A stretch of 32,397 nucleotides of DNA from Prochlorothrix hollandica PCC 9006 = CALU 1027 (lineage in GTDB: Bacteria > Cyanobacteriota > Cyanobacteriia > Prochlorotrichales > Prochlorotrichaceae). Position numbers and translations under genes: made by a program. The notes beneath the pieces are model-generated. The model was given only the letters and a program-made list of their open reading frames with translations, had not been told where the DNA came from and did not search any database. The stretch lies in NCBI RefSeq assembly GCF_000332315.1, contig NZ_KB235933.1:1252921-1285317 (forward strand). The letters are read 5' to 3'. Position 1 is the first letter of the stretch. Each line of letters begins with the position of its first letter. Shown piece by piece: positions 10,099 through 23,373 of this stretch.

Positions 10099-11346
10099 GG
10101 CTCTCCGTAACTTATGGTGATAAGTTTATCTAATGAGAGAAGGCAGCTAGAGTTCTGGAGCGGAAGTTTTCAAAATTCAAAAAGCCGTAAGCCTGCCTTT
10201 TAATTAACTTAATTCGATTGTTAATACCTTCCATAGTACCGCTTGTCGTTCTACTAATAAAGTAGTTACAAATTCCTTCGAGGTGATTACGAATGGTTTT
10301 TATAACTTTACCATATACAGACCGGGCTTTCAGAAGCCATTGTGTGAACCTCTCTTTACCCTCTTCAATCGTTGTACTAGTTTCGTATATGCCCCTAAAC
10401 TCTTCTTTTAATTGATATGCCAGATCTAAACGCTCTGAAAGAGCTAAAATTTCCGTCAGTTTCACTTCTTCTTTCTCTGTCAAGTCTTCTCGATTCTTGA
10501 GGAGAATAAACTTGACTCCTTTATCTGTTGCTCCCACCTGTGTACGAATCTTATTTAATTCCATATTTACAGGTTTCATTACATGAAATCGGTCAATGAC
10601 AATTTTGGCATTAGGAAAGACTTCTTCCACAACTTTTGGGAAACCACCCCACATATCTACACTCACCTCCTCAATTTGCTCCCGAACCTCAACTGGTTGC
10701 TGCATAAGGGTTTCAATGATATCCTCTTGTTTGTGACTGTTGATCATTTCGATCAGTTTGCCCTGATCAATATCTGCCACTACAGTGACAAAATCTTTAT
10801 GGCCTTTGCGTTGACTAATCTCATCAATACTTAGTCGTTTCACATTACCCCAGGTTTCTGTTTTTTTTTGATCCCTTTGATGGTTAAAAATCCCTTGGAT
10901 CTGGGTAAAACTCAGGTTTTCCTCTCGCCCGACTTGTGTGATATTTGAACTCTGCACCCGCTTATAAATATATTCTTCGTAGCGTCGAGTATATCGGCGC
11001 TCCCAGTCCGCAAAATGTAGATCCTCTGTAAAGTAACGCTGGCAATCAGAGCAGTAGAACTGACGACGAGGAGTCCTGAGATAAACTGGTTGACCAAAGA
11101 CTGGTAAATCTCGCATTAAGATGGGGCGGTTTTGATGAATATCGGCAGTCTGTGTGCCGCAGTGAGGACAGCTACTCTCTTCAGTCAATAGCCGCAATGT
11201 TAGATAAACTTCATTATTTTGATAAGCACAAGTCTCAACCGTAACTCCTGGTATATTTAGAAGATTATCTAGATGAAAAGCCATGGTAAGCATCCCCTGC
11301 TAAATGTATCGCTCTATACAGTTTACACCAAGATCATCGGAGAGCC
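10099..11346 (-). mobile_element. Complete ISL3-family insertion sequence
   Basis: The element is 1248 bases and is bounded by imperfect inverted repeats. The inward readings start GGCTCTCCG at both ends and share TGGTG further in. It contains one intact transposase gene. ISL3 elements normally duplicate 8 bases, but the flanks (TGAATTTT on the left, ATCTCTTC on the right) do not match. The gene on each side is truncated at the junction. The element may therefore mark a recombination or deletion joint rather than a simple insertion. Confidence 0.9.
10130..11284 (-). CDS. tnpA: ISL3 family transposase
   Basis: DDE transposase of 384 residues that cuts and pastes its element by recognising the terminal repeats. 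An N-terminal zinc-finger region has CPHC (Cys39/Cys42) and CSDC (Cys78/Cys81). The catalytic core has SIDE with Asp154, VSVDMWGGF with Asp210, the family block DRFHVMK, and TMEGINNRIK with Glu352. All three acidic residues are present and the frame is unbroken, so it may be active. The ATG at 11284 is chosen over a start three codons earlier by comparison with typical ISL3 N-termini (MAFHLDNLL). Confidence 0.95.
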   Translation of the reverse strand: MAFHLDNLLNIPGVTVETCAYQNNEVYLTLRLLTEESSCPHCGTQTADIHQNRPILMRDLPVFGQPVYLRTPRRQFYCSDCQRYFTEDLHFADWERRYTRRYEEYIYKRVQSSNITQVGREENLSFTQIQGIFNHQRDQKKTETWGNVKRLSIDEISQRKGHKDFVTVVADIDQGKLIEMINSHKQEDIIETLMQQPVEVREQIEEVSVDMWGGFPKVVEEVFPNAKIVIDRFHVMKPVNMELNKIRTQVGATDKGVKFILLKNREDLTEKEEVKLTEILALSERLDLAYQLKEEFRGIYETSTTIEEGKERFTQWLLKARSVYGKVIKTIRNHLEGICNYFISRTTSGTMEGINNRIKLIKRQAYGFLNFENFRSRTLAAFSH

Positions 11347-13931
11347 ATCTCTTCATGGGGGGCGATCGGGCCGTGGGCCAAGGGGCTTCCCGATCGACCC
11401 GTGCCCTGGGGGGGGACAGCCTCAGCCTCCGGGCCAGCTACACCGACAACCCCAATTTCCAGGCCCAAGTGCAGTATGAGTACCGCAACAGCAGCGGTAG
11501 CCAAACCTCCAATGTGTCTGCCTCCCTCATGGGTAAGCTGTCCCCCTCGTTGACGGCGTTGTTTGATGCCGATCGCCGCTTTGCGTCCGGCAGCGCCAGC
11601 CGGGGCTTACCCGCCACCACCCAGGTGCGCCTAGGTCTGGCCTATCGCAATCCCTACAGCGATCGCTTTAATGCCCTGTTGCGCTACGAATATCGCCAAA
11701 ATCCCAGCACCACCCCCGAAAGTCTCCTGGATGGCAGCGGGGTGGGCACCACGGAACACCTGTTTGCCGGGGAAGCCATCTATTCCCCCAACTGGCAGTG
11801 GGAGTTCTACACCAAGCTGGGCTTCCGCCAGTCCACCCTGAACCTGGCAGACAGCTTCACCGCCAGCAGCACCGTTACCCTGGCCCAAATCCGGGCCACC
11901 TACCAGGTCAACCGCCGCTTCGACCTGACCGGGGAAGCCCGCTGGATTGGGCAACCCAGCGCTGGCTACAGTGAAATGGGCTGGGTGGGGGAAGTGGGCT
12001 TCCATGCCACCTCCAATTTGCGCCTTGCCCTAGGCTATAGCTCCGGCAGCATTAATAACGATCGGGACTTCAGCGGCAGTCGATCCGCCGGGGGCATCTA
12101 TGGGGGCGTGACCCTGAAGCTGGATCGCCTGTTCCAGGGCTTCGGTCTCCAGCAGCCCCTGGCCCAAACCCAACCCCGTCGCCAACTGACGGCCCAGGAT
12201 CCCAACCAACCCACCCCGGCCCAACTCCAAGCCGCCGCCCCCAGCCCTCCCCTGCGGCTCCAGGTCTCCCAGGCGGTGGAATTCACCCCCAACAGCGCCG
12301 TCATGTCCCCGGAAGGCCGGGTGGTGTTGGATAGTCTGGCCACGGTCATGGGGCAATATGGCGACCTGAAGCTGGACATGGAGGCCGTGCTACCCCCCTT
12401 GGCGGAGTTGACCCCGGACAACCTGGAGGCGCGGCAATTGCAGGCGGCTCGCCAGTATCTCCTCAGCCGAGGGGTGGCGGGCGATCGCATTACCATCCGC
12501 GCCCTCAACACGTCCGCCGCAGCCACGGGCAACACCCCGGTGACCTTTGCCCTCAAGGGACCCACCACCACCTTCCAACTGCTGTCGTCCCAATTGGGCA
12601 GCGGCTTAGTGGGCAGTCTCCTGGGCCAAGAACTGCCCCAACTGGCCAACCTGCCCCGCCCCAGTGCTGCCCCTGGCACCCCCACCGCTGCCCCCGCCTC
12701 AACGGCGATCGCCGCCCCGGCAGCGACCCCCGCCCTCCCCAATCTCTTGGCCCTGGTGAATGGGGTGGCTATACCCCTGGATCAGGTGCCCTTGGATGGG
12801 GCCGAACCCAGCCCGGTGCGCCTGCCCCTGTTGCCCCCCCCCGCTGACGACCTGCAAGCCGCGATGCCGAGAATCACGGGTCAGTTTGGATCCCTAGCCC
12901 AAGCGGCGGTGCCCAACGGCATCACCCTGGCCCAGGGCAACCCCGATCGACCGGGCATCACCCCGATCGGCCTCAGTCTGAACCCCGATCGGGCCTTCTG
13001 GCAAGCCTTCGTCGATGCCGCCACCCCCCTACGCACCGCCCAACGCTTGGATAACCCAGCCAATGGGGGAGAAACCCCCGACACCCGGGTGTCGGCAGTG
13101 CCCAACCCCTCGCTCTCGGCTACTGGCCAAGGCTCGGATCCTGGGATCACCGCGATCGCCAGGGACACCGAGCAACGCCTGAGCGTTGTCCCCCGTGCTG
13201 AGCTGGGGGATGCCCAGGGCAGCACCTCGATCTGGAGCATTGGCCAACTCCTGGGCAGCAGCCTGGGAGAACTGGCTCCCCAGCCTACCCTGACGGGCTT
13301 GAACCCCACGGCCCTGCGCCTGTCCCTGGTGCCCAGCCTGGGAGCGATGCCCGCCCCAACCCTCACCGCTGAACCCACAACGGCCCTGGATCTGGCCCAA
13401 GCCCCCACCGCAACCCCTGGCTTTAGCCCCACCTTACCCAGCACCGCCGGGAGACCCGACTCCATCGCCCTTTGGCAGACCCTGAGCCTGTGGCAAGCCC
13501 TGGCCCTCAATACGGAAGAGGCCACGCCCGACACCTTCGCCCTCAATACTGAAAACGAGACCCCCGACACCTTCGCCCTCAATACTGAAGGGACCCCGGA
13601 CAATACCCTAGCCACGGGTAACACCACGAACCCAGACAACACCACAGCCCTCAACCTGGCGGTGGATCGGGCCTTCTGGCGGGCCATGGCCGAGGCAACC
13701 ACTCCCCTCCGCACCGCCCAACGGCCCACGGCTAACCCCAATGGCTTCGACATCAGCCTCATGGAAGCCCGCCGCCTAGAAGCTGCCCTCACCTTCCTCC
13801 TCAGCCGCGACCTCAACGCCCTGGATGCCCTGCTCCAGGCTTCCGGCACCCAAGCGCCGGAGATTCGAGGGGAACTCATCGATCTTGATGCGTTGATGCA
13901 ACAGAACCAAGCAGGGGAGGGAGCCTTATGA
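11304..13931 (+). CDS. Outer-membrane beta-barrel/OmpA-like protein, 5'-truncated
   Basis: The first 14 codons come from the IS end; native sequence starts at 11347, and the true N-terminus and signal peptide are missing. Residues ~30-290 are rows of alternating polar/aromatic segments (VQYEYRNSSG, LGLAYRNPYSDRFNALLRYEYR, WEFYTKLGFRQ) closing with GGVTLKLDRLF, as expected of an outer-membrane beta-barrel. Next comes an OmpA-like stretch (VEFTPNSAVMSPEGRVVLDSL, then RQYLLSRGVAGDRI). The rest is Pro/Ala/Thr-rich, with a repeated motif DRAFW-A-TPLRTAQR at ~12983 and ~13663 and three copies of FALNTE or LALNTE. Its stop overlaps the next ATG (ATGA), so it is co-translated with the beta-helix gene. 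Probably a cell-envelope assembly or adhesin scaffold protein. Confidence 0.7.
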   Translation: MYRSIQFTPRSSESHLFMGGDRAVGQGASRSTRALGGDSLSLRASYTDNPNFQAQVQYEYRNSSGSQTSNVSASLMGKLSPSLTALFDADRRFASGSASRGLPATTQVRLGLAYRNPYSDRFNALLRYEYRQNPSTTPESLLDGSGVGTTEHLFAGEAIYSPNWQWEFYTKLGFRQSTLNLADSFTASSTVTLAQIRATYQVNRRFDLTGEARWIGQPSAGYSEMGWVGEVGFHATSNLRLALGYSSGSINNDRDFSGSRSAGGIYGGVTLKLDRLFQGFGLQQPLAQTQPRRQLTAQDPNQPTPAQLQAAAPSPPLRLQVSQAVEFTPNSAVMSPEGRVVLDSLATVMGQYGDLKLDMEAVLPPLAELTPDNLEARQLQAARQYLLSRGVAGDRITIRALNTSAAATGNTPVTFALKGPTTTFQLLSSQLGSGLVGSLLGQELPQLANLPRPSAAPGTPTAAPASTAIAAPAATPALPNLLALVNGVAIPLDQVPLDGAEPSPVRLPLLPPPADDLQAAMPRITGQFGSLAQAAVPNGITLAQGNPDRPGITPIGLSLNPDRAFWQAFVDAATPLRTAQRLDNPANGGETPDTRVSAVPNPSLSATGQGSDPGITAIARDTEQRLSVVPRAELGDAQGSTSIWSIGQLLGSSLGELAPQPTLTGLNPTALRLSLVPSLGAMPAPTLTAEPTTALDLAQAPTATPGFSPTLPSTAGRPDSIALWQTLSLWQALALNTEEATPDTFALNTENETPDTFALNTEGTPDNTLATGNTTNPDNTTALNLAVDRAFWRAMAEATTPLRTAQRPTANPNGFDISLMEARRLEAALTFLLSRDLNALDALLQASGTQAPEIRGELIDLDALMQQNQAGEGAL

Positions 13932-16555
13932 AGACCTTAATGCACCAGGGAGCGATCGCCAGAGCCGTGAGTCCCTCCGGATCCCAGGGCGTAGTCCGGA
14001 AATCCCGACGACGGGGGGCTATCGCCCTTTCCCTGGGCTGGACCCTAGGACTGGGATCCGCCGGTCTGGCCGCCGAGATTCCCCTGCGATCGGCCAACCC
14101 CCAGACCTACACCATCCAGGTCAACAGTAGCCAGGATGGGGCGATCGCCCCCGATGCCGCCCTGACCCTACGGGAAGCCATCGCCCTGACCAACGGCGAT
14201 CTCAGCCTGGGGGATCTGTCCACCGCTGAACAGGCCCAGATCCAACCCCTCAGCCCCGGTAGCCCCTCCCAGATCACCTTTGCCTTGTCCACCGATGCTC
14301 CCCAGATCCTAGAACTCCACAGCCCCCTGCCCCCCCTGCGCCAGTCCGGTTTAATCCTGGATGGCCTGGGGGAAAAATCCCCGGCAAACTCCCCGCGCCT
14401 GATCCTGCGACCCGCCCAGATCAACACCATTCCCTGGGGCTTGCTGGTGTTGGCCAACGACATCACCATCCGGGGCTTGGGCTTCCAGGGCTTCCACAGC
14501 GCCGATCCCAACCTCTATCCCTTTGTGGGCAATGTGGTGGTGACCACGGGGCAAATGCTCTATGACCTGGGGCATTTGGCCGATGTGGTGCAGTTGGATC
14601 CCCCCCGCAACCTGCTGCTGGAGGACAACCAGTTTGGCACCGTTCCCCAGGGCGATCGCCCCCGGCCTGCCTCCGCCTTTGGGGTGGTCATTTTTGACGG
14701 CCTTGGCACCACCCTGCGCCATAATCAGTTTCTCTACCACAGCGGCAGTGCCCTGTTGACGGGGAAGGTGGCCCGATCGACCACGGTGCTGGATAACTTG
14801 TTTGTGGGCAATGGGGGGGCAGAATTGGCGGATGCCCTGCGCCTGGAGGGATCCATTGGCGACAGCACCATGGTGGGCAATACCTTTTGCCACAACCGGG
14901 GCCAGGGGATTTACCTGTTTAAGCCGGAGGGGGCGATCGCCGTGGAAAATAATCTCTTCTATGGCAATGGCAGCGCCAGCGGCACGGGCAACGGCACCCC
15001 CGCCCAGGATGCCGCCGTTTACCTGATGGGTTCGGGCCATCGGGTGCTGGACAATCGTATTGTGAACCAGGGGGGTCCGGGCATTGCGATCGCGGGCTAT
15101 CCCCGCAGTGTGGGCAACCGGCTCCAGGGCAACACCTTTGCCCAGGTGCAGGGGCTGAGCATTGATCTGGTGACCCGCCGCGACACGGGTTTCCACAGCC
15201 TCCGGGGGGGCGATGGACCCAACCCCCCCCGCAATTCCCACAACCGCCGCCTGGATACGGGCAATGGGGCGGTGCTGGCTCCCCAGTTTGTGGGGCTGGA
15301 GTTTTTCCCCCTGGGCGATCGGGTGCGGGTGTCGGGGACGGCAGATCCGGGGGCGACGGTGGATCTCTACCGGGTGTTGGAACCGGGGCAAGCCTTCGGT
15401 CCCCTCAATGAACTGTGGGTCAGCACCACCGCCGATGGGGAGGGACGGTTTACGGTGGATCTGGTGACCTGGGAACTGGGCGATCGCCTGTCGGCCATAG
15501 CCACGGATCCCGTTGACGGCACCTCGGAACCGGCTGAAAATGCCGTGATTCGCGATTTTTCGCCCCGCCCTCTGCCAGGAGGGGCCACCATGACTCGCAC
15601 ACCCTTCGATCAGTTTGCCAAGCAATTCCTAGAAGAACTGCTCACCCCCTATGGCCAAGTGGAAATTAGCCGTGAAATTCCCGGTGAACCGCGCTTCATT
15701 GACCTCTGGTTTAGCCCTAGCCCCGCTTCCCAGCCCAGGGTCCCAGATTTGGGGTTACTCGGCCAAATAATCCAAACCCCCTGCCTCCTAGAACCCTACC
15801 GCAACCCGCCGGATCCACCGGAAATCAATAGTTGCTTGCTCAAGCGCTTTTGGCTTGTGGCGGACTGCTACCGCCAAAATCAAGCCGATCGCCTCCCCCA
15901 ACTCTGGGTTATCACCCCCACGGCCCCCCCGGCCCTGCTGGCCAGCCTGGGGGCAATTCCTAGCCCTGACCATCCGCCTGGTATTTATCGCACCCCCAGT
16001 GCCCTTGGCACCCAGATTCTGGCCGTTCATCAGCTTGATCCCACCCCCGAAACCCTATGGCTGCGCCTCCTCGGTCGTGGTTCGGTGCAACGGCAAGCCA
16101 TTGGGGAAGTTCTGGCTTTACCCCCCAGCAATCTACGCTTCCAGGCTCTGCGCCTCTTGGTAAACTGGAAAATTACAGTAGACACCACCAACATCCTGCA
16201 AACAGAAGAGGAGGCTAATCTGATGGCATGGTCCCAAGCACTATTAGACCTTGAAGCGCAACTGCGGGCAGAAGGCCGCCAAGAAGGCCGCCAAGAAGGC
16301 CGCCAAGAAGGCCGCCAAGAAGGTCGCCAGGAAGGTCGCCAGGAAGGATTTCGGGAGGGGCTGCGAGAGACGCTCCAGAATTTGTTTTTGGCGCGATTTG
16401 GTGCGGTGGATGGGATATTAGAGGCCACGATCGATCGCATCCTCACCCTCTCCCCCGAAACCTATACCCAGATCTTTCCCCAACTGCTCACCCTCTCTGC
16501 GGCGGAACTCGCGGAACGAGTGACCCAACTTTCTGACCCAATCTCCCTGGACTAA
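13928..16555 (+). CDS. Secreted beta-helix protein fused to an EGRQ-repeat PD-(D/E)XK-like protein
   Basis: One uninterrupted 875-codon frame. Residues 1-50 form a signal peptide with RRR, a hydrophobic core and GLAAE. Residues ~55-470 are a right-handed beta-helix with repeated N-x-F/I rungs (LEDNQFG, LRHNQFLY, LDNLFVGN, VGNTFCHN, VENNLFYGN, LDNRIVNQ). A short Ig-like segment follows (VRVSGTADPGATVDLY). At residue 555 a second protein starts with MTRTPFDQFAKQFLEELLTPYG, a cytoplasmic family common in cyanobacteria and often annotated DUF4351/Rpn-like, with IDLWFSP and LLEPYRNPP. Six EGRQ repeats follow, then a helical tail. AGGAGG stands 7 bases before codon 555, so the second half can also be made alone. 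Reading through would export a cytoplasmic-type domain. Confidence 0.75.
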   Translation: MKTLMHQGAIARAVSPSGSQGVVRKSRRRGAIALSLGWTLGLGSAGLAAEIPLRSANPQTYTIQVNSSQDGAIAPDAALTLREAIALTNGDLSLGDLSTAEQAQIQPLSPGSPSQITFALSTDAPQILELHSPLPPLRQSGLILDGLGEKSPANSPRLILRPAQINTIPWGLLVLANDITIRGLGFQGFHSADPNLYPFVGNVVVTTGQMLYDLGHLADVVQLDPPRNLLLEDNQFGTVPQGDRPRPASAFGVVIFDGLGTTLRHNQFLYHSGSALLTGKVARSTTVLDNLFVGNGGAELADALRLEGSIGDSTMVGNTFCHNRGQGIYLFKPEGAIAVENNLFYGNGSASGTGNGTPAQDAAVYLMGSGHRVLDNRIVNQGGPGIAIAGYPRSVGNRLQGNTFAQVQGLSIDLVTRRDTGFHSLRGGDGPNPPRNSHNRRLDTGNGAVLAPQFVGLEFFPLGDRVRVSGTADPGATVDLYRVLEPGQAFGPLNELWVSTTADGEGRFTVDLVTWELGDRLSAIATDPVDGTSEPAENAVIRDFSPRPLPGGATMTRTPFDQFAKQFLEELLTPYGQVEISREIPGEPRFIDLWFSPSPASQPRVPDLGLLGQIIQTPCLLEPYRNPPDPPEINSCLLKRFWLVADCYRQNQADRLPQLWVITPTAPPALLASLGAIPSPDHPPGIYRTPSALGTQILAVHQLDPTPETLWLRLLGRGSVQRQAIGEVLALPPSNLRFQALRLLVNWKITVDTTNILQTEEEANLMAWSQALLDLEAQLRAEGRQEGRQEGRQEGRQEGRQEGRQEGFREGLRETLQNLFLARFGAVDGILEATIDRILTLSPETYTQIFPQLLTLSAAELAERVTQLSDPISLD
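15590..16555 (+). CDS. Probable internal translation product: EGRQ-repeat PD-(D/E)XK-like protein
   Basis: The in-frame ATG at 15590 is preceded by AGGAGGGGCC, a strong ribosome-binding site, and starts exactly where free-standing homologues start (MTRTP-DQFAKQ-LEELL). The product would have 321 residues. Conserved features are RFIDLWFSP, LLGQIIQTPCLLEPYRNPP, CLLKRFWLVADCYR, PQLWVITPTAP, TLWLRLLGRGSVQRQAIGEVLAL and a C-terminal helical bundle after the EGRQ repeats. Members are often annotated as Rpn-like nuclease or DUF4351 proteins, with activity mostly unproven. I cannot see a clear catalytic lysine. Confidence 0.6.
   Translation: MTRTPFDQFAKQFLEELLTPYGQVEISREIPGEPRFIDLWFSPSPASQPRVPDLGLLGQIIQTPCLLEPYRNPPDPPEINSCLLKRFWLVADCYRQNQADRLPQLWVITPTAPPALLASLGAIPSPDHPPGIYRTPSALGTQILAVHQLDPTPETLWLRLLGRGSVQRQAIGEVLALPPSNLRFQALRLLVNWKITVDTTNILQTEEEANLMAWSQALLDLEAQLRAEGRQEGRQEGRQEGRQEGRQEGRQEGFREGLRETLQNLFLARFGAVDGILEATIDRILTLSPETYTQIFPQLLTLSAAELAERVTQLSDPISLD
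16271..16342 (+). repeat. Six 12-bp coding repeats (EGRQ)
   Basis: Six tandem units of GAAGGCCGCCAA encode EGRQ. The last two units differ at the third codon positions (GGTCGCCAG), so the first four are the more recent expansions. The alternating charge would give a flexible or helical linker. Confidence 0.95.
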
Positions 16556-16637: not shown

Positions 16638-17636
16638 ATGGCATCGCGTAAACCCTCTCCTCCTGCCCATCCCTGGTTTATTCTCTGGTTTCTGGCCCTG
16701 TGGACCCGTATCCAGACCGTTTTGCGTTGGACGATCGCAACTCCGGGCTGGTTAGGGCGGTGGGTGCTGCGGGGGGGACAGGGGGCGATCGAGGCGGGCC
16801 TGCGCCCCTATCTCCACAGTGTTCGGCAGACCCGCCAGCGACAACGGGAGCGCCGCAGACGCTGGTGGCGCAAAAATGGGCCTTTGAAGCCGATCGATCA
16901 GCTTCTGGGTCTGTGGGGCATCCGTCCCGTTGAATGGCGACGGTGGTTGAAGCGATCGAGCCTGTTTCTGTTTACCTGCGTCTTTACCCTACTCTTTACG
17001 GGGATTCTGGGTTGGTTTTTGCTCCCCGCTGGTGCAGCAGATCCCGGCAATGTGGTCTTTGTGAAGCGGATTACGGCGGTGAATACGACCGATATCACGG
17101 GCTTTGTCGAGGATGCCACGACTAACGACAATGAACCCGACTGGCCTAGCCCTAATACCACCTATTTGCGAGGAGAAATTGGGAATACTGGACTACCCAA
17201 CGGAGGCGTGCAACCCGGCGATGAACTGGAATACACCATCTATTTCCTCTCCAACGGCGGTTCTGACGTGCGGGATGTGAAATTCTGTGACCTGATCCCA
17301 GCGAATACAACCTATGTCACTGGCAGTATGCGCTTGGGCTATGACGCGACCAACACAACCTTGCCTGATCCGAGCGGGACAGGAACAGTCCTAACCGATG
17401 CCGATGATGCACCGACTGATGGTGCTGTGTTCTATGCAGGGGGTACTACGCCACCCACTATTTGTACCAACGCTAATGCCAACGGTGGTAACGACAACGA
17501 TCCCAGCACCAATGACACGGGTGCTGCCTTTGTCCAGATCGTTGATGCTGCCACCCCTATGCCCGCTGCCACGGGAGCAGGAACGCCCATCAGCTCCTAT
17601 GGCTTTGTGCGCTTCCGGGTCAAAGTAGTGGATTAA
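16638..17636 (+). CDS. Membrane-anchored DUF11-like surface protein
   Basis: A 332-residue protein. Residues 1-110 are unusually Trp/Arg-rich (RQRQRERRRRWWRKNG, EWRRWLKR) with one hydrophobic stretch near 12-32. A strong membrane segment lies at about 112-130 (LFLFTCVFTLLFTGILGWF), followed by PAGAADPG, a possible cleavage site. From ~137 the exported domain begins NVVFVKRITAV and includes ELEYTIYFLSNGG, VKFCDLIP, a second cysteine in PTICTN and a final FVRFRVKVVD. The same module ends the giant protein at 22341. DUF11-type domains are Ig-like and occur in adhesins and cell-wall proteins. The two cysteines may form a disulfide. The N-terminal basic extension is not a standard signal peptide. 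Confidence 0.7.
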   Translation: MASRKPSPPAHPWFILWFLALWTRIQTVLRWTIATPGWLGRWVLRGGQGAIEAGLRPYLHSVRQTRQRQRERRRRWWRKNGPLKPIDQLLGLWGIRPVEWRRWLKRSSLFLFTCVFTLLFTGILGWFLLPAGAADPGNVVFVKRITAVNTTDITGFVEDATTNDNEPDWPSPNTTYLRGEIGNTGLPNGGVQPGDELEYTIYFLSNGGSDVRDVKFCDLIPANTTYVTGSMRLGYDATNTTLPDPSGTGTVLTDADDAPTDGAVFYAGGTTPPTICTNANANGGNDNDPSTNDTGAAFVQIVDAATPMPAATGAGTPISSYGFVRFRVKVVD

Positions 17637-17710
17637 GGTTTCCCACCGCCTTGCCCAGCATCTGTCTCCGTTCCCCTGATTCCCAATTCTTCCCTGTCCT
17701 GTAGGTTCCC

Positions 17711-20182
17711 ATGAGTGACAACAACACGATCGATCGCCAACCGTCGCCAGCCTCAGGATCCTGGAGTGCTGGAGCATCAGCCATCCAACCCTGTCCCGGG
17801 GATCGCCGGGGCTGGTGGACCCAGGTGCAACGCAAAACCATCGCAGTCCTGGCTCCAGGGCTGCTGCTAGGGGCACAGTTCTGTCTCGATCGTCGCCCCG
17901 CCTTCGCCCAAACTGCACCGGGCACCCTCATCGAAAACACCGCTACCGGTAGCTTCATCGACACCGCCACCTCAACGGAAAAAACCCTCACCTCTAACAC
18001 CGTAACCGTCCAAGTGCTGGAAGTAGCGGGCATTGGGGTCACGGCCCAGACCCCCATAGAGGCTAACCTTGGGGAAGCAGAGGCCATCTTAGGGACGGGT
18101 AACGCAGGGGACTATCAGGGCTTTGATGGGGTTAATACCGGGGACTTAATCTTCTTTGACTTTGTGGTGAAAAACCTAGGCAACGATCCCACCGCGTTTT
18201 TCATCCCCCTCCAGCCATTTAGTGTAACGGGGGCCACCTTTAACGCAACAGCCCCGATCCAGATCATTGCCATGGACCCCGATGGTGCGGGCATAGGCTA
18301 CAGCGCTGTGACGGATTTTGATGGGGTGGGCACCCAAAATAGTATCAACGTCACCACGGCAGGGCTAACCACAACCCTACTAGAAGCCCCCAATGGTTAT
18401 ATTCCAGCAGGTGGAACTGTTACGGTGCGGGTTCCGGTCATTGTCACCGAAACAACCCTTACTAATCCCATTAAAGTGGTTTTAGGCAACACGACGCCGG
18501 TGGGTGACCAAAACCAGGTCTATAGTGCCGGTACCCATGATCTTTATACCCAAGATCTCAGCAATAGCACCCCTAATCCCTACACCAGTCCCACCAGCAC
18601 GACACCGGAAGCAGACGGATCCCCTGTTGCCGAAAAAGAAGCCAGTGCCGAAGGATCGACACCCTTAACAGCAGCCTATGCCTTAAACGGCTATAAATCC
18701 GCCAAACTCACCACTGATATCAACAGTGATGGCACCGTCAATGAAGGGGAGACGGTGACCTGGACAGTGACCTATGTGAACACAGGCAGTGGGGATATTA
18801 CCAACCTGCAAATCACCGACAATTTAGCCACCCTGGCAACCCCCGGCACCACCTTTGCCGGTCCCTTAACGATTACGCCCAACCCCAATCCTTTAGCAGG
18901 GGGCAATCCCACGGCCAACCCTAGCTATGATGGCAATACAGACAGCAATGCCAACCCCACCGACATTAACCTGTTTGCCAGTGGCATTACCTTGAAACCG
19001 GGGGAAGTGGTGACAGTGGCCATTCCGGTGACGATCGCCAATCTGATCCCCGATACCCGCACGGAGTCCAACCAAGCCAGCGCCACGGGCCTAAAAAATG
19101 GGGGTGCTGCCCTGACAGCAGTCCTCACCGACAATGTGGATGATGTACCCGCCGAAACTCTGCCCACCAATGTCACCATTCCCGCCAGCAGTATTACCCA
19201 AACCGAAAATACAACCTCCATCGATCCCACGACGCTGGATGTGGTCACAGGAGTCACCCTGGTTTTAGGCGATCACGGGGATGCCCCTAACACCTACGGC
19301 ACCAACACGGCGGTCCACACCGGCACCGGATCAACCCTTTACCTGGGATCGGTGCAGCCGGATACAGAAACCGGCCCTTCTACGCCCCTCAATGGCAGCG
19401 GGGATGATGGGACGGGCACCGACGAGGAAGCCGTCACCACATTTCCCATCCTCAACACCACTGGCGGAGCCACCTATAGCGTTCTGGTCAATGCCTCTAA
19501 TACCAGCGGCAGTAATGCTTATCTGGCGGGCTACATCGACTTTAACGGGGATGGGGACTTTAACGATACCAATGAGCAGTCCGCCACGGTGACCGTGCCC
19601 AATGCCGCCAGCAACCCCCAGGGCTTTTTGGTCACCTTCACCACCCCGGCGGCGGGCATGACCGCTGGCAGCACCTACGCCCGTTTCCGCCTCAGCAGCA
19701 CCCAAAGCGAAGTGCAATCCCCCACCGCCGCCGCCAGCAGCGGGGAAATTGAAGACTACCCCCTCGCCATCACCGCTGATAACCGGGACTATGGGGACGC
19801 GATCGACACCGGATCTGGAACCGCATCCGGCAACTACCAAACCACCGCAGCGGATGGGGGACCCAGCCACGGCATTGTGGCCGGACTGCTCCTGGGAACC
19901 GCGATCGATGCCGATGATGGCACCTTGCAAAATAACGGAGCCAACGCCGACGATGCCAACAATGTTATGATGATGAAGATGGGGTTGGTAGTTTTTCAAC
20001 CTTGGAGGCGATCGGAGATCCAACCTATAACATCAAAACTTCGGTCACCAATTCCACGGCGAGTGCTGCCTATGTGGTGGGATATATTGACTTTAACCGG
20101 GATGGGGATTTTGGCGACAGCGGTGAGAAAAGCGCCACGGTCACGGTTACAGCCAACAGCGGCACCGCCGACCAAACCTTAA
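17711..20182 (+). pseudogene. N-terminal part of a giant DUF11/GEVED surface protein (frameshifted)
   Basis: Starts with a long signal region: basic RRGWWTQVQRK, a hydrophobic core and cleavage after PAFA near residue 66. Then come DUF11-like Ig domains (TGDLIFFDFVVKNLGNDPTAF near 140; ETVTWTVTYVNTGSGDITNLQITD near 350). A GEVED domain at ~520-692 has DHGDAPNTYG, AGYIDFNGDGDFND and SGEIEDYPLAI. A second GEVED repeat begins RDYGDAIDTG near 695. At 19966/19967 one G is missing, so the frame leaves the domain after NANDANN-like sequence and reads unrelated residues to 20182. Restoring it gives one protein of 1543 residues ending at 22341. GEVED and DUF11 domains are known from secreted bacterial surface proteins. 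Confidence 0.8.
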
Positions 20183-22341
20183 GTTTCACCACGCCATCGG
20201 GGATTACCACCGGCACAACCTACGTCCGCATTCGTTTGGCTTCTGTGCAAGGGGAAGCAGAAGTGTCCACAGGGGCCGCCACTGCCGGGGAAGTGGAGGA
20301 CTATCCCATCACCATTTTGCCCAATCTAGTCGGCACAGGGCCGCAGTTTACCTGCGATGCCACTTTAAAGTTGGTCACAGGTGCCTCAGGCACAAGTTCA
20401 AGCTTGCATCAAATCAATCGGGGCGATCTCTTTCCCGACCTCAGCGATCCCACAGCCTTTGAATTTGTCAAGACTAAAGTTCTCACAAACAGCCAAACCT
20501 ATTCCATCAATGCCCTAGCCTATAATCCCGTTGATAATTATCTGTATGGGGTGATTATTCAACCGAACTCTGGAGCCAATAGTAATATCGTGAAAGGAGG
20601 GATTGTCCAAATTGACTCCACTGGCAACGTTAGCTTTTTAGGAATCCCTGTCAAAGCAGATGGCACAGCTTCCCTGGTGGCTGATGATGATGATGACTTG
20701 CAAGCTCGGAATAACTTCATCGCAGGTAATAACCAGGGCTATCCAGCCGGTACGTTTTTGTTGGATGGAACCTATGTAGTCATGGCAGAGGAAGGGAATG
20801 ATCGCAACCAGGTTCCTATTTACTTACTGGATGTGACCACTAGCCCTCCCCAATATGACTACAAGGGAACGATCTCGGGACCGTTCTTCGATGACTTCGC
20901 CGTCAATCCCCAAGACACCACACCGAATCGAGTTTACGGTATCGATGATCAGACCGATCGCTTAGTCTATTTTTCCGTCGATCCGTTAAGTGCCTCAGTC
21001 ACCAACGCCACCAGCGGCACCACCAGCGACACGGAATTCACCCGCAACTATGGTTCTCAATTTTTTGACAGCTTTGGCCGGATGCTTTTCCGCACCGGGG
21101 ATTCCCCCAATAATTTATATATCCTCAACGGCACCACTGGAACCGCGACTTCCTTGCTCACGGGTCCCAGTGGTGGTCGCCATGATGGCACCTCTTGTAA
21201 CAGTGTGGAACTCGAAAAAGCCGTCAACCCAACGACCGTTGCTGCGGGTAGCACGGTCACCTATACCTATCGCATTGCTAACAGTCGCCTCACCCCCATT
21301 ACCCTCACCTTTGAAGACAGTTTAGCCAGCGTTAATAATTTCCCTGGCACTGCCCGCAATGAAAGCACCACCCCCGTGAAAGGCACATTTACGGGAGTAT
21401 TCCCCAGCCCCCCTAGCGGTGGTAGCATTTCCCTTTTGGATAGCAACAGAACCCTACGCATTTCGTCCTTAACTGTACCGGCCCAAAGCATTATTAGCTT
21501 TTCCGCAGATGTGTTAATTGATCCCACCATCGCGATCGATCCCGGCGGTGACCCCGATGGCGACACCAATAATGACAAGACCCCCTATTTTAACCAAGCA
21601 GAACTCACCGGTCTGCCCAGTCCCCTTCCCGCCTCGGTTCTGTCCGATGACTTCACCACAGATTTAGCCGCAGACCCCACCATCATCACCATCACCCCCG
21701 CCACCGCCACCACCCCAGAACTGCTCCTGGTGAAGCGCATCACAGCTTGGCTCCCTGGGAATGGTAGCCCCAGCACAAGCTATACCAGCTTTGTGGATGA
21801 TGGCATCGCCAACAATGGAGATAATGATTCCGGTTGGCCCGGTGCCAGTGGCGGGACAAACACCTACACCCTGGGGGTAACGGGTTTAGAGGCTAGTCCC
21901 GGCGATACGGTGGAATACACCATCTATTTCCTCAATACGGGGAATGGACCGGCAACGAATGTCAAGATCTGCGATCGGCTCTCGCCCTACCTCACCTATA
22001 TACCCACTACCTACGGCATCGCCCCTGATTATGGCATCCGCCTGGTTTTTGGCAATGGCAGCGATACTCGCAGTCTCACAGGGTCCAATGATGGGGACTT
22101 GGGGCAATTGGTTGGGGCAGGGGTCGATTTAACGGGCACCTGCAAGTTTCTCAATGACAAGGGTACATCTACCCCTGATGATGACACAGTGGATGATGTA
22201 GGTGCAGTCCAAAACGTGAATGGGGTTGTGTTAGTCACGCCCACGGGTGGGTCTTCGCCCAGCCAACTGGAGGTTTCAACGGGCGCGGGAACCCCCAACA
22301 CGTCCTATGGTTATATTCGGTTCCGGGCGACGGTGAAGTAA
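19967..22341 (+). pseudogene. C-terminal part of the giant DUF11/GEVED surface protein
   Basis: This frame continues the second GEVED repeat (DDEDGVGSFSTLEAIGDP, VGYIDFNRDGDFGD, AGEVEDYPITI). A ~300-residue region follows that resembles a DUF6923/beta-propeller-like domain (NALAYNPVDNYLYGVI, GTFLLDGTYVVMAEEG). Then come a DUF11-like domain (VAAGSTVTYTYRIANSR) and the terminal module LLLVKRITAW ... DTVEYTIYFLNTG, VKICDRLS, TGTCKF, YGYIRFRATVK. It has no ribosome site; the first TTG at 20002 is only the start of the open frame. Separation from the upstream part is most simply a one-base deletion or a sequencing error. Expression of this part alone would lack a signal peptide. Confidence 0.8.
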
Positions 22342-22551
22342 AGAGGGGTTGGCTAGGGCACTCAACTAGGACCGGATGGATTCACCCCCTCCAGGCTCAA
22401 CCCAGAACCCTTGGCGAAACCCAGCATTCAGGGCATGATAAGGCCGAGACCCATTGATCCCCAGAAGGGCGATCGCCCCAACCGTGCCCCTGCCCCACCC
22501 TAGGATGCAGCCCCATCGTCTCCCTGATCCTTGCCTGAGGCCATTGCTCCC

Positions 22552-23373
22552 ATGCCCATCCTGCCGCCCCCCCTAGCCACCAAACTGCACAACCGTTGGC
22601 GCAAACTGCTAACGGCCTACTACCACGCCACCCACCAGGAATTTTATATCCTGTCCTACCCTAAAACCGGGAGAACGTGGCTACGGGTGCTGTTGGGCAA
22701 ACTCCTCCAAGACCTGGGACATTTGCCAGCAACAGCCCTGATTCAGCATGATTCCTTTCCCCCCTCCTGGCGACAGCCCCCCATCTACTGGTCCCATGAA
22801 GATGCGGCCATGGTCTTGCAACAGCCCTACACCAGCCTCTCCGCCGATAAATCCAGCTATCAGGGTAAAAATGTCATTATTCTGAGCCGTGACCTCAAAG
22901 ATACCTTGGTATCAGCCTATTTCCAGGCCACGAAGCGCATTCATGTCTTTGAGGGATCGATCGCGGAGTTTATTCGGGACGATCGCTATGGGTCCAAGAA
23001 AGTTTTGACCTACTACCAACACTGGGAACAGAACTTAACCGTACCGGGGCGGATCCATCTGCTGCGCTACGAAGCCCTGCATCAGGATCTCGATGGGGAA
23101 CTGGAACGCCTACTCACGTTTCTGGGTCTGCCCGCCACCGATCCACAACTGCGCCGCCAAGCCATGGATTTTGCCTCCTTCGGCAACCTCAAGAAGTTGG
23201 AACAGCAGGACCATTTCAAAACGGAGATCCTGCGACCGGGCGATCGCGACGATCCCGACAGCTTCAAAGTCCGCCAAGGCAAAGTGGGAGACTATCACAA
23301 CTACCTCAGCCCTGAAGATATCGCCTATCTGGATGACCAAATCGCGGCCTTTGGCTGTTCCCTCCTCTCCTAA
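22552..23373 (+). CDS. PAPS-dependent sulfotransferase
   Basis: A 273-residue sulfotransferase-family protein that would move sulfate from PAPS to a hydroxyl or amino group, in this setting plausibly on an exopolysaccharide or glycolipid. The 5'-phosphosulfate loop is LSYPKTGRTWLR at ~35-46. The 3'-phosphate motif is IILSRDLKDTLVSAY. The C-terminal motif VRQGKVGDYHNYLS closes the PAPS site. The ATG at 22552 is preferred over a TTG seven codons earlier because the preceding residues are not conserved-looking. It ends convergently with the next gene. Confidence 0.85.
   Translation: MPILPPPLATKLHNRWRKLLTAYYHATHQEFYILSYPKTGRTWLRVLLGKLLQDLGHLPATALIQHDSFPPSWRQPPIYWSHEDAAMVLQQPYTSLSADKSSYQGKNVIILSRDLKDTLVSAYFQATKRIHVFEGSIAEFIRDDRYGSKKVLTYYQHWEQNLTVPGRIHLLRYEALHQDLDGELERLLTFLGLPATDPQLRRQAMDFASFGNLKKLEQQDHFKTEILRPGDRDDPDSFKVRQGKVGDYHNYLSPEDIAYLDDQIAAFGCSLLS

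Follow-up and report, generated by a model that had tools for sequence, protein, structure and literature searches.

The 32,397-nucleotide stretch of Prochlorothrix hollandica PCC 9006 = CALU 1027 analysed here (hereafter the window; contig NZ_KB235933.1) encodes two neighbouring surface proteins that end in copies of the same C-terminal module. We consider it reasonably probable that this module is a donor-strand acceptor, which would be completed by an N-terminal strand carried on partner proteins. The pattern that points this way is visible in the sequences themselves: the module stands at the C-terminus, keeps a lysine, an aspartate and two cysteines, is linked to and co-occurs with the gene for a predicted outer-membrane barrel, has partners that carry a donor motif, and shows a gene order that correlates with the presence of donors. 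Loci of similar build are likewise found in other phyla. From this pattern we infer that the module lacks one strand, that a donor strand inserts in its place, that a Lys-Asn bond subsequently forms, and that the barrel exports or anchors the resulting fibre.

Copy 1 (17043..17633, plus strand), delimited by blastp, alignment, a hidden Markov model (HMM) and an AlphaFold model, comprises residues 136-332 (197 residues) of a 332-amino-acid protein encoded by the open reading frame (ORF) 16638-17636 on the plus strand. In this protein a long N-terminal part is followed by a hydrophobic stretch ending LLPAGAA (17019 on) and then by the module alone. The VKRIT motif containing the Lys lies at 17061-17075, the FCD motif with its Cys and Asp at 17283-17291 and the last strand, SYGFVRFRVKVVD, at 17595-17633. 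Copy 2 (21706..22338, plus strand; blastp and alignment) forms the last 211 residues of ORF 20002-22341, with VKRIT at 21730-21744, ICD at 21967-21975 and SYGYIRFRATVK at 22303-22338. It closes a giant adhesin gene (17711..22341, plus strand) that begins 75 bp downstream of the gene for the 332-residue protein and encodes two GEVED domains, a DUF6923 domain (both by Pfam), DUF11-like repeats and the terminal module. The giant also has an orphan donor-like strand near its N-terminus, GTLIENTATGSF, followed by SNTVTVQV (17921..17956, plus strand). The two copies are homologous: blastp aligns them over their full length with 65 of 210 positions identical (E 7e-18), and their Smith-Waterman score of 213 compares with a best of 77 from 500 shuffles. 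A first-pass annotation of the window had proposed such a shared module from its motifs, and all of these (VKRITA, an acidic stretch, (L/V)EYTIYFL, V.(F/I)CD, a second Cys and YG(F/Y)(V/I)RFR) recur in the alignment. No third copy was found in this genome in a search up to E 0.01.

Two other details of that annotation survive in part. The giant protein does end in the module, but it is not encoded in a single open frame: there are two overlapping ORFs (17711-20182 and 20002-22341), and the frame changes near 19960-20000, in a repeated ATG/GAT stretch between the two GEVED domains. This change may be either a sequencing error or a real lesion. Similarly, the 332-residue protein, described as membrane-anchored, has the hydrophobic stretch (approximately residues 109-129), but its identity as an anchor is doubtful because LLPAGAA, followed by D, can be read just as well as the end of a long signal peptide that is cleaved at an AXA site. 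Searches with the N-terminal part of this protein returned best matches at E 0.001 or worse, and one match that was inspected adjoined transposase-like ORFs.

The module appears from its family scores to be related to DUF11 while not being an ordinary DUF11 domain, the latter having been raised at the outset as a reason to dismiss it. Pfam DUF11 (PF01345) scores 18.1 bits in the 332-residue protein, below its cut-off of 24.6, and 27.3 bits, just above it, in the second protein, with the best stretch falling within the module; NCBIfam TIGR01451 scores 39.2 and 46.0, above its cut-off of 24 in both. DUF11 has been renamed CLIPPER, and the available sections of the relevant study demonstrate an internal Lys-Asn isopeptide bond, Lys715-Asn806, in which Asp748 presumably assists (PMC12617251). 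We equate these residues, by sequence comparison, with the Lys, Asp and Asn (the last in the final strand, NTA) that are found in 86%, 94% and 98%, respectively, of 131 full internal DUF11 repeats from 39 giants. In the modules, the Lys and Asp of this presumed triad (Lys9 and Asp84, equivalence by alignment) are kept in 92 of 92 copies. The chain ends at YGF(V/I)RFRxxV(K/N), in which YGFxRFRxxV can be read as the next-to-last strand of the fold, and an Asn motif occurs within the last 40 residues of just 2 of 123 modules. When the module is aligned with RrgB D2, model position 3 falls on residue 187 and position 198 on residue 308; read without gaps, this places Lys9 on residue 193 and the end of the module before residue 318, the pair that forms the RrgB isopeptide bond (K193-N318). 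The module would then be a DUF11/CLIPPER sandwich that has kept its Lys and Asp and is without its last strand, the one bearing the Asn. A PHROGs search gave one weak match, and searches of PDB sequences gave nothing convincing with the module and trans-sialidases at E ~0.1 with an internal repeat.

The terminal position of the module is close to absolute. An initial survey of 59 genomes of the class, including this one, found module relatives in 24; a broader HMM grown on the neighbourhoods of those relatives gave 34 full matches, of which 33 were terminal, and these 33 copies, chosen for terminal position and score, formed the seed alignment. A scan of named genomes then yielded 241 relatives among 256 pattern stretches, of which the best 80 of 241 were kept, all with cyanobacterial titles. 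With the seed model, the stop codon follows 0-3 residues after the module in all 123 full-length matches from all of these loci and the window (122 distinct sequences after removal of one exact duplicate, from 109 loci, with some genomes represented twice). Because the seed was itself terminal, we repeated the test with an HMM of the N-terminal half only, and 124 of 127 full matches lay 60-140 residues from the stop. A random position of the domain, which would have undermined its interpretation as a C-terminal module, is rejected on these counts; the exceptions, L038 (internal) and L106 (partial), arise under other models and are weighed below.

Conservation of the module is similarly high. 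Across 92 aligned copies, 68 columns are conserved at a level of at least 75%, and 13 are invariant (Lys9, Arg10, Thr12, Trp35, Gly45, Glu64, Tyr65, Tyr68, Cys83, Asp84, Gly161, Gly188 and Arg191). Exactly two cysteines are present in 88 of the 92, and the final residue is Lys in 58 and Asn in 23 (81 of 92). The proteins that carry the module are very different from one another, and their passenger regions are barely alike: in a sample picked by module similarity, the median normalised similarity was 0.029 for passengers vs 0.359 for modules, and the module was the more similar part in 147 of 150 random pairs drawn from 111 proteins.

Upstream of the module gene and on the same strand lies the barrel gene, with open frames of 1,100-1,800 amino acids and N-terminal immunoglobulin (Ig)-like domains. 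In two full barrels (L044 and L059) no Pfam family reached its cut-off over the barrel part, and by this measure the barrel seems to be an uncharacterised family. In a class survey of 289 genomes with completeness of at least 95 (this one included; their cyanobacterial nature is deduced from the named loci), the module was found in 118 and the barrel in 116, with both in 113, the module alone in 5 and the barrel alone in 3; weak or partial module matches are present in two of these three. The corresponding phi is 0.94 among genomes that are related, so that a genome-level Fisher value overstates the association; each gene is found in 48 of 128 genera. A barrel gene is located no more than 6.5 kb upstream of the module in 92 of the 100 copies that could be tested, and no more than 500 bp away in 55 of those; 22 of the 122 distinct module proteins are left out of this count because they had too little upstream sequence. 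The eight copies without a nearby barrel comprise tandem arrays (L058, L078, L134), one with a barrel on the opposite strand (L049) and four that stand alone (L074, L116, L133, L138). L078, L134, L139 and L140 each have two or three module genes in tandem, and no donor was detected in these arrays. Genomes G028, G042, G077 and G086, which belong to one genus, have the module without the barrel, and the G028 module (L033) follows a long Pro-Thr linker. The first-pass annotation had asked whether the module always lies beside either a barrel or an anchored stand-alone copy. For the barrel this holds with the exceptions given above, and for the stand-alone copy it fails. As a general rule the latter is rejected, since among the matches listed in the class survey only three other module frames are shorter than 400 amino acids, and these come from G008 (at an assembly gap), G028 (at a contig edge) and G202 (near a contig start). 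A beta-helix gene directly precedes the module gene in 21 of 123 cases, and in L042 Pfam assigns an OmpA domain to its product.

Candidate donors for the missing strand are found in the genes around the barrel. Directly upstream of it is a gene for a protein of ~320-550 amino acids with an SdrD_B-like end, which we call the base, and immediately after its signal peptide there is an orphan strand, for example LINQATYTYTD or ILNTASYSFQD. A generic position matrix built on the last strand did poorly at telling base proteins apart (22 of 61 scoring at least 6 vs 9 for shuffles), and for that reason we turned to explicit motifs, the counts of which are descriptive and are controlled by shuffles and other ORFs; rows cut by contig starts are excluded from all N-terminal counts. 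A strict donor motif is present in 53 of 61 base candidates, compared with a shuffle mean of 1.25 and with 7 of 599 other ORFs, and elsewhere in the loci in 0 of 78 barrels, 5 of 114 module proteins and 2 of 50 proteins of 190 amino acids. A looser motif is present in 59 of 59 members of the base family (picked by their C-terminal signature) vs 58 of 599 other ORFs. A set of diverse base proteins shows the donor Asn in 11 of 11, within a region that otherwise varies, and a wider alignment shows it in 52 of 59. At the level of sequence, partner proteins have the N-terminal extension resembling the missing strand that is expected of a donor-strand fibre. Further upstream than the base lies the gene for the 190-amino-acid protein, joined in 36 of 48 loci that have it by a larger, shaft-like subunit. 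All 36 shaft subunits have an FQRKVN-type end, and a donor strand stands at the front of 3 of 3 uncut copies (595-822 amino acids) and of the 910-residue one of Synechococcus NIES-970. The 190-residue protein (L044 18317-18889 and 45 relatives, copies having been retained only if ending in R, K or N, 46 of 48) is secreted, conserved and DUF11-like, and ends in a strand such as YQVKVR; it may serve to hold or cap the donor strand. In NIES-970, the 190-residue protein has an Asp at the presumed catalytic site.

If partner N-termini do supply the missing strand, then appending them to truncated domains should make those domains look more complete. We appended candidate donor strands to domain ends and measured the change in score against the internal-repeat HMM. 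Internal repeats cut before their last strand gained 4.84 bits with donors vs 0.14 with control N-termini (donors better in 40 of 40), and complete repeats showed no gain (-3.03 with donors, -1.80 with controls). Shaft ends gained 3.77 bits vs -0.74 for controls (better in 34 of 36), and six ends from Acinetobacter, Deinococcus and Thermus gained 7.2-8.4 bits vs 0.25 (6 of 6). Gene order gives a separate indication. Six giants, the one in the window among them, have an N-terminal donor, and all six have another module gene 75-206 bp upstream. Loci with more than one module number 12 of 110 (L135 being entered on the basis of a cut ORF), and their association with donor giants has a Fisher value of 4e-7, or 4e-5 after three near-identical loci are merged.

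These observations suggest how the parts might fit together. The beta-sandwich of the module would stop after its next-to-last strand, and the missing last strand, bearing the Asn that bonds the Lys of the first strand, would be supplied by the N-termini of partner proteins exposed after their signal peptides. As the missing strand would sit free on the partner N-terminus, a complete domain could form only across two polypeptides. Donors would be carried by the base protein, the shaft-like subunit and some giants (including that of the window), so that the halves would join head to tail, possibly covalently. The predicted order of the fibre is then the outer-membrane barrel, the base with its N-terminal donor, optional shafts that begin with a donor and finish with an acceptor, and a tip or giant adhesin with an acceptor at its end and usually without a donor. 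In the window, the giant has a donor in front as well as an acceptor at its end, and for this reason the 332-residue protein, an acceptor with little else, is envisaged as mounted on the N-terminus of the giant. More tentatively, and with rather less than an even chance in our estimate, sortase-free covalent fibres of this kind could be widespread: a CLIPPER domain split into a Lys/Asp C-terminus and an Asn-strand N-terminus would lock itself in the manner of SpyCatcher/SpyTag, and in Cyanobacteria, Deinococcota and Gammaproteobacteria would connect tip and shaft to a base bound to the barrel.

The wider distribution comes from a tblastn search with the barrel, which returned 36 plasmid records. 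Some of these are distant relatives, from Acinetobacter, Deinococcus, Thermus, Vibrio and alphaproteobacteria, and the barrel part was also matched on a plasmid of Thermus thermophilus HB27. Acinetobacter haemolyticus has a fusion in which the base, starting AGQIIQNIAYASY, precedes the barrel; an OmpA protein comes next, together with a DUF11 giant. In Deinococcus sp. QL22 and Thermus brockianus, the barrel is directly preceded by donor-like proteins and followed by ones with a comparable end, and some proteins have both a donor-like front and such an end; in T. thermophilus HC11 the protein downstream of the barrel has the end. The Deinococcus, Thermus and Acinetobacter loci look similar to the cyanobacterial one in their sequences. 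The Thermus plasmids L153 and L156 carry a similar locus, which in L156 adjoins type I-C CRISPR genes.

Several observations weigh against strand donation. The weakest link is the complement test for the cyanobacterial module itself, which gains just 0.75 vs -1.29 bits and is better in 16 of 20, and hhalign found no significant alignment between the last strand of the module and the strand regions of internal repeats. The proposal that one strand is lacking consequently draws mainly on the pattern and on the other phyla. The donor motifs were composed after inspecting the termini. Among shaft proteins, 10 of 36 have an Asn motif in their final 40 residues, and the 190-residue protein has Asn in place of the presumed catalytic Asp in 30 of 46 copies, the other 16 being unreadable by the pattern. 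Half of the multi-module loci (6 of 12) have no detectable donor giant; five module-bearing genomes have no barrel even at E 1; and the proteins upstream of the barrel in T. thermophilus HC11 and Devosia have, as annotated, no donor, while that of Roseovarius is unreadable (cut at the edge and out of frame). There is one internal full copy of the module (L038, 84 bits, 311 residues before the stop; 1 of 34 with the broader model), and 1 of 42 partial matches with the module model reaches the model end away from a stop (L106). The structural matches are also weak. An AlphaFold model of the module is good (predicted local distance difference test, pLDDT, 84.8; predicted template modelling score, pTM, 0.84) and is a beta-sandwich, and its PDB matches (Foldseek best E 0.017; best Z 7.3) are mostly pilin and adhesin domains, with the CLIPPER structure 9IFR among them (Z 6.5, root-mean-square deviation 2.1, 91 residues). 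Finally, the locus in the window is broken, as described below.

The alternative that survives best, albeit as an unlikely one, is that the module is a sorting signal recognised by the barrel as a tag for export or retention, in the manner of the type 9 C-terminal domain and without strand exchange. A C-terminal module on diverse passengers that co-occurs with a barrel is what such a signal would look like, and the barrel model (L096, 1182 amino acids) has 39 strands of at least 8 residues after residue 300 and has as its first Foldseek match a chain of the type 9 secretion system (T9SS) complex, 8gl6_A (E 2.6e-8). The barrel model is poor, however (pLDDT 67.9, pTM 0.41), and its TM-scores to T9SS chains are 0.16-0.18, so that the match means merely 'large barrel'; the model otherwise matched Ig domains from glycosidases as well as large barrels of a generic kind, with FimD appearing only as one of the latter. 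A PDB sequence search with the barrel returned only glycoside hydrolase chains (best a beta-galactosidase, E 0.0011). With TM-scores this low, the present evidence does not support placing the barrel in the SprA family, and an SprA-type translocon gave no sequence match. No Por_secre_tail or other T9SS sorting domain appeared when the module proteins of the window were scanned with Pfam and NCBIfam and the L044 giant with Pfam. A sorting signal also leaves unexplained both the orphan N-terminal strands and the module gene that precedes all six donor-bearing giants. The first-pass annotation had suggested a docking, sorting or polymerisation module analogous to a C-terminal secretion tag; its outline holds in that the module is terminal, has diverse passengers and is linked to a barrel, and within it our data speak for strand donation as the means of docking or polymerisation rather than for a secretion tag that is cleaved off.

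Somewhat less likely again is that the module is a terminal cap, the last DUF11 repeat of a stalk having become specialised, disulfide-stabilised and partnerless, perhaps with an internal Lys-Asp bond. The relation to DUF11 and the cysteine pair in 88 of 92 copies would suit a cap, and the range of the alignment to BcpA (3kpt) would fit a bond of the Lys-Asp type. The 68 conserved columns and 13 invariant positions nevertheless seem beyond the needs of a passive cap, and the donors, the complement test and the linkage to the barrel are left unexplained. We regard as very improbable the idea that the module is the binding head of a tip adhesin that recognises a single conserved ligand, for instance the polysaccharide of the strain itself: it does sit, highly conserved, at the end of adhesin-like proteins, but ligand-binding heads are usually more variable, shaft subunits, base and barrel are all linked to the module, and similar ends are found on proteins in other phyla.

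Strand donation, if it occurs elsewhere, is probably not at work in this strain, given a truncated barrel, a frame change in the giant and a base gene that was not found. What is left of the barrel gene (11304..13931, plus strand) matches residues 938-1245 of a 1271-residue relative and continues into a weak OmpA-like tail; this match was the sole piece detected, the front part of the barrel not being found in this genome. Nor was a base gene found here by a search that succeeds in 5 of 5 control genomes. Abutting the barrel fragment is an ISL3-family insertion sequence (10099..11346, minus strand; transposase 10130-11293). Its two ends match, GGCTCTCCG, and it is not flanked by an 8-bp target duplication. 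G+C content jumps across the element from 0.47 on the left to 0.64 on the right, which suggests that a rearrangement or deletion probably accompanied its insertion. Between the barrel fragment and the 332-residue protein is an LTLREAI parallel beta-helix gene (13928..16555, plus strand; 486 bits to the family model), of which the end is different from ~15593 on and contains RQEG repeats. This tail (15593-16552) is weakly like Rpn-family nucleases (TIGR01784, 14 bits), has partial relatives at 8 other places in the genome, and has the appearance of having been inserted or fused. A sulfotransferase gene (22531-23373; Pfam Sulfotransfer_1, E 2.6e-23) immediately follows the giant on its downstream side.

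DUF11 proteins are common and little-explained surface proteins, and how they attach to one another and to the outer membrane is undescribed in the open-access literature that we searched. Equally, we found in that literature no description of the locus, the module or a split CLIPPER joint; the available sections of PMC13297417 (on a cyanobacterial DUF11 signal peptide), PMC4390845 and PMC11952670 have no bearing on the module or the locus. If strand donation is correct, a gene set present in 113 of the 289 genomes sampled from the class would be a fibre system with a clear and cheaply testable joint, and may also supply naturally occurring orthogonal pairs for protein ligation, with heat-stable ones from Thermus among them.

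Donor-strand fibres are themselves known, and the apparent novelty here is that, in several phyla, a CLIPPER domain would be split for this purpose and linked to a barrel. Chaperone-usher pili are built from incomplete Ig-like domains with N-terminal donor extensions, follow a tip, shaft and base logic and have an outer-membrane barrel. The system proposed here would share with them a presumed incomplete sandwich, the N-terminal donor, the tip/shaft/base order and the barrel; it differs in that chaperone-usher pili are not known to have a covalent joint, and no usher family appeared in the Pfam scan of the two full barrels. Such pili are outlined in the available sections of PMC9715654, which concerns the archaeal thread formed by Saci_0406. 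The thread likewise combines head-to-tail donor-strand complementation with a proposed intermolecular isopeptide bond, which in this case links the side chain of an Asn with the amino group at the N-terminus of the protein two subunits further on; it differs in being archaeal, in having a domain that is not a Pfam one and in having no outer membrane or barrel (PMC9715654, same sections). In the TasA fibre of Bacillus subtilis, an N-terminal donor strand completes the next sandwich and a starter protein, TapA, is suggested to offer the first donor, in a Gram-positive organism, without DUF11 and with no covalent link reported in the sections available (PMC9674648). The cargo of type 11 secretion resembles the module proteins in that a barrel gene stands beside diverse cargo unified by a C-terminal domain, but there the cargo domain is an eight-stranded barrel and the translocon is DUF560 (PMC12282271, available sections), neither of which turned up in Pfam scans of the window and locus proteins. 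The CLIPPER domain of Acinetobacter silvestris B9T28_05395 (9IFR) belongs to the same family and has the same Lys and Asp. In the sections available (PMC12617251) it is a complete domain, occurring mostly as stalk repeats and closed by an intramolecular bond, whereas the module described here is terminal and apparently without its Asn strand, and would look to a second polypeptide for its completion.

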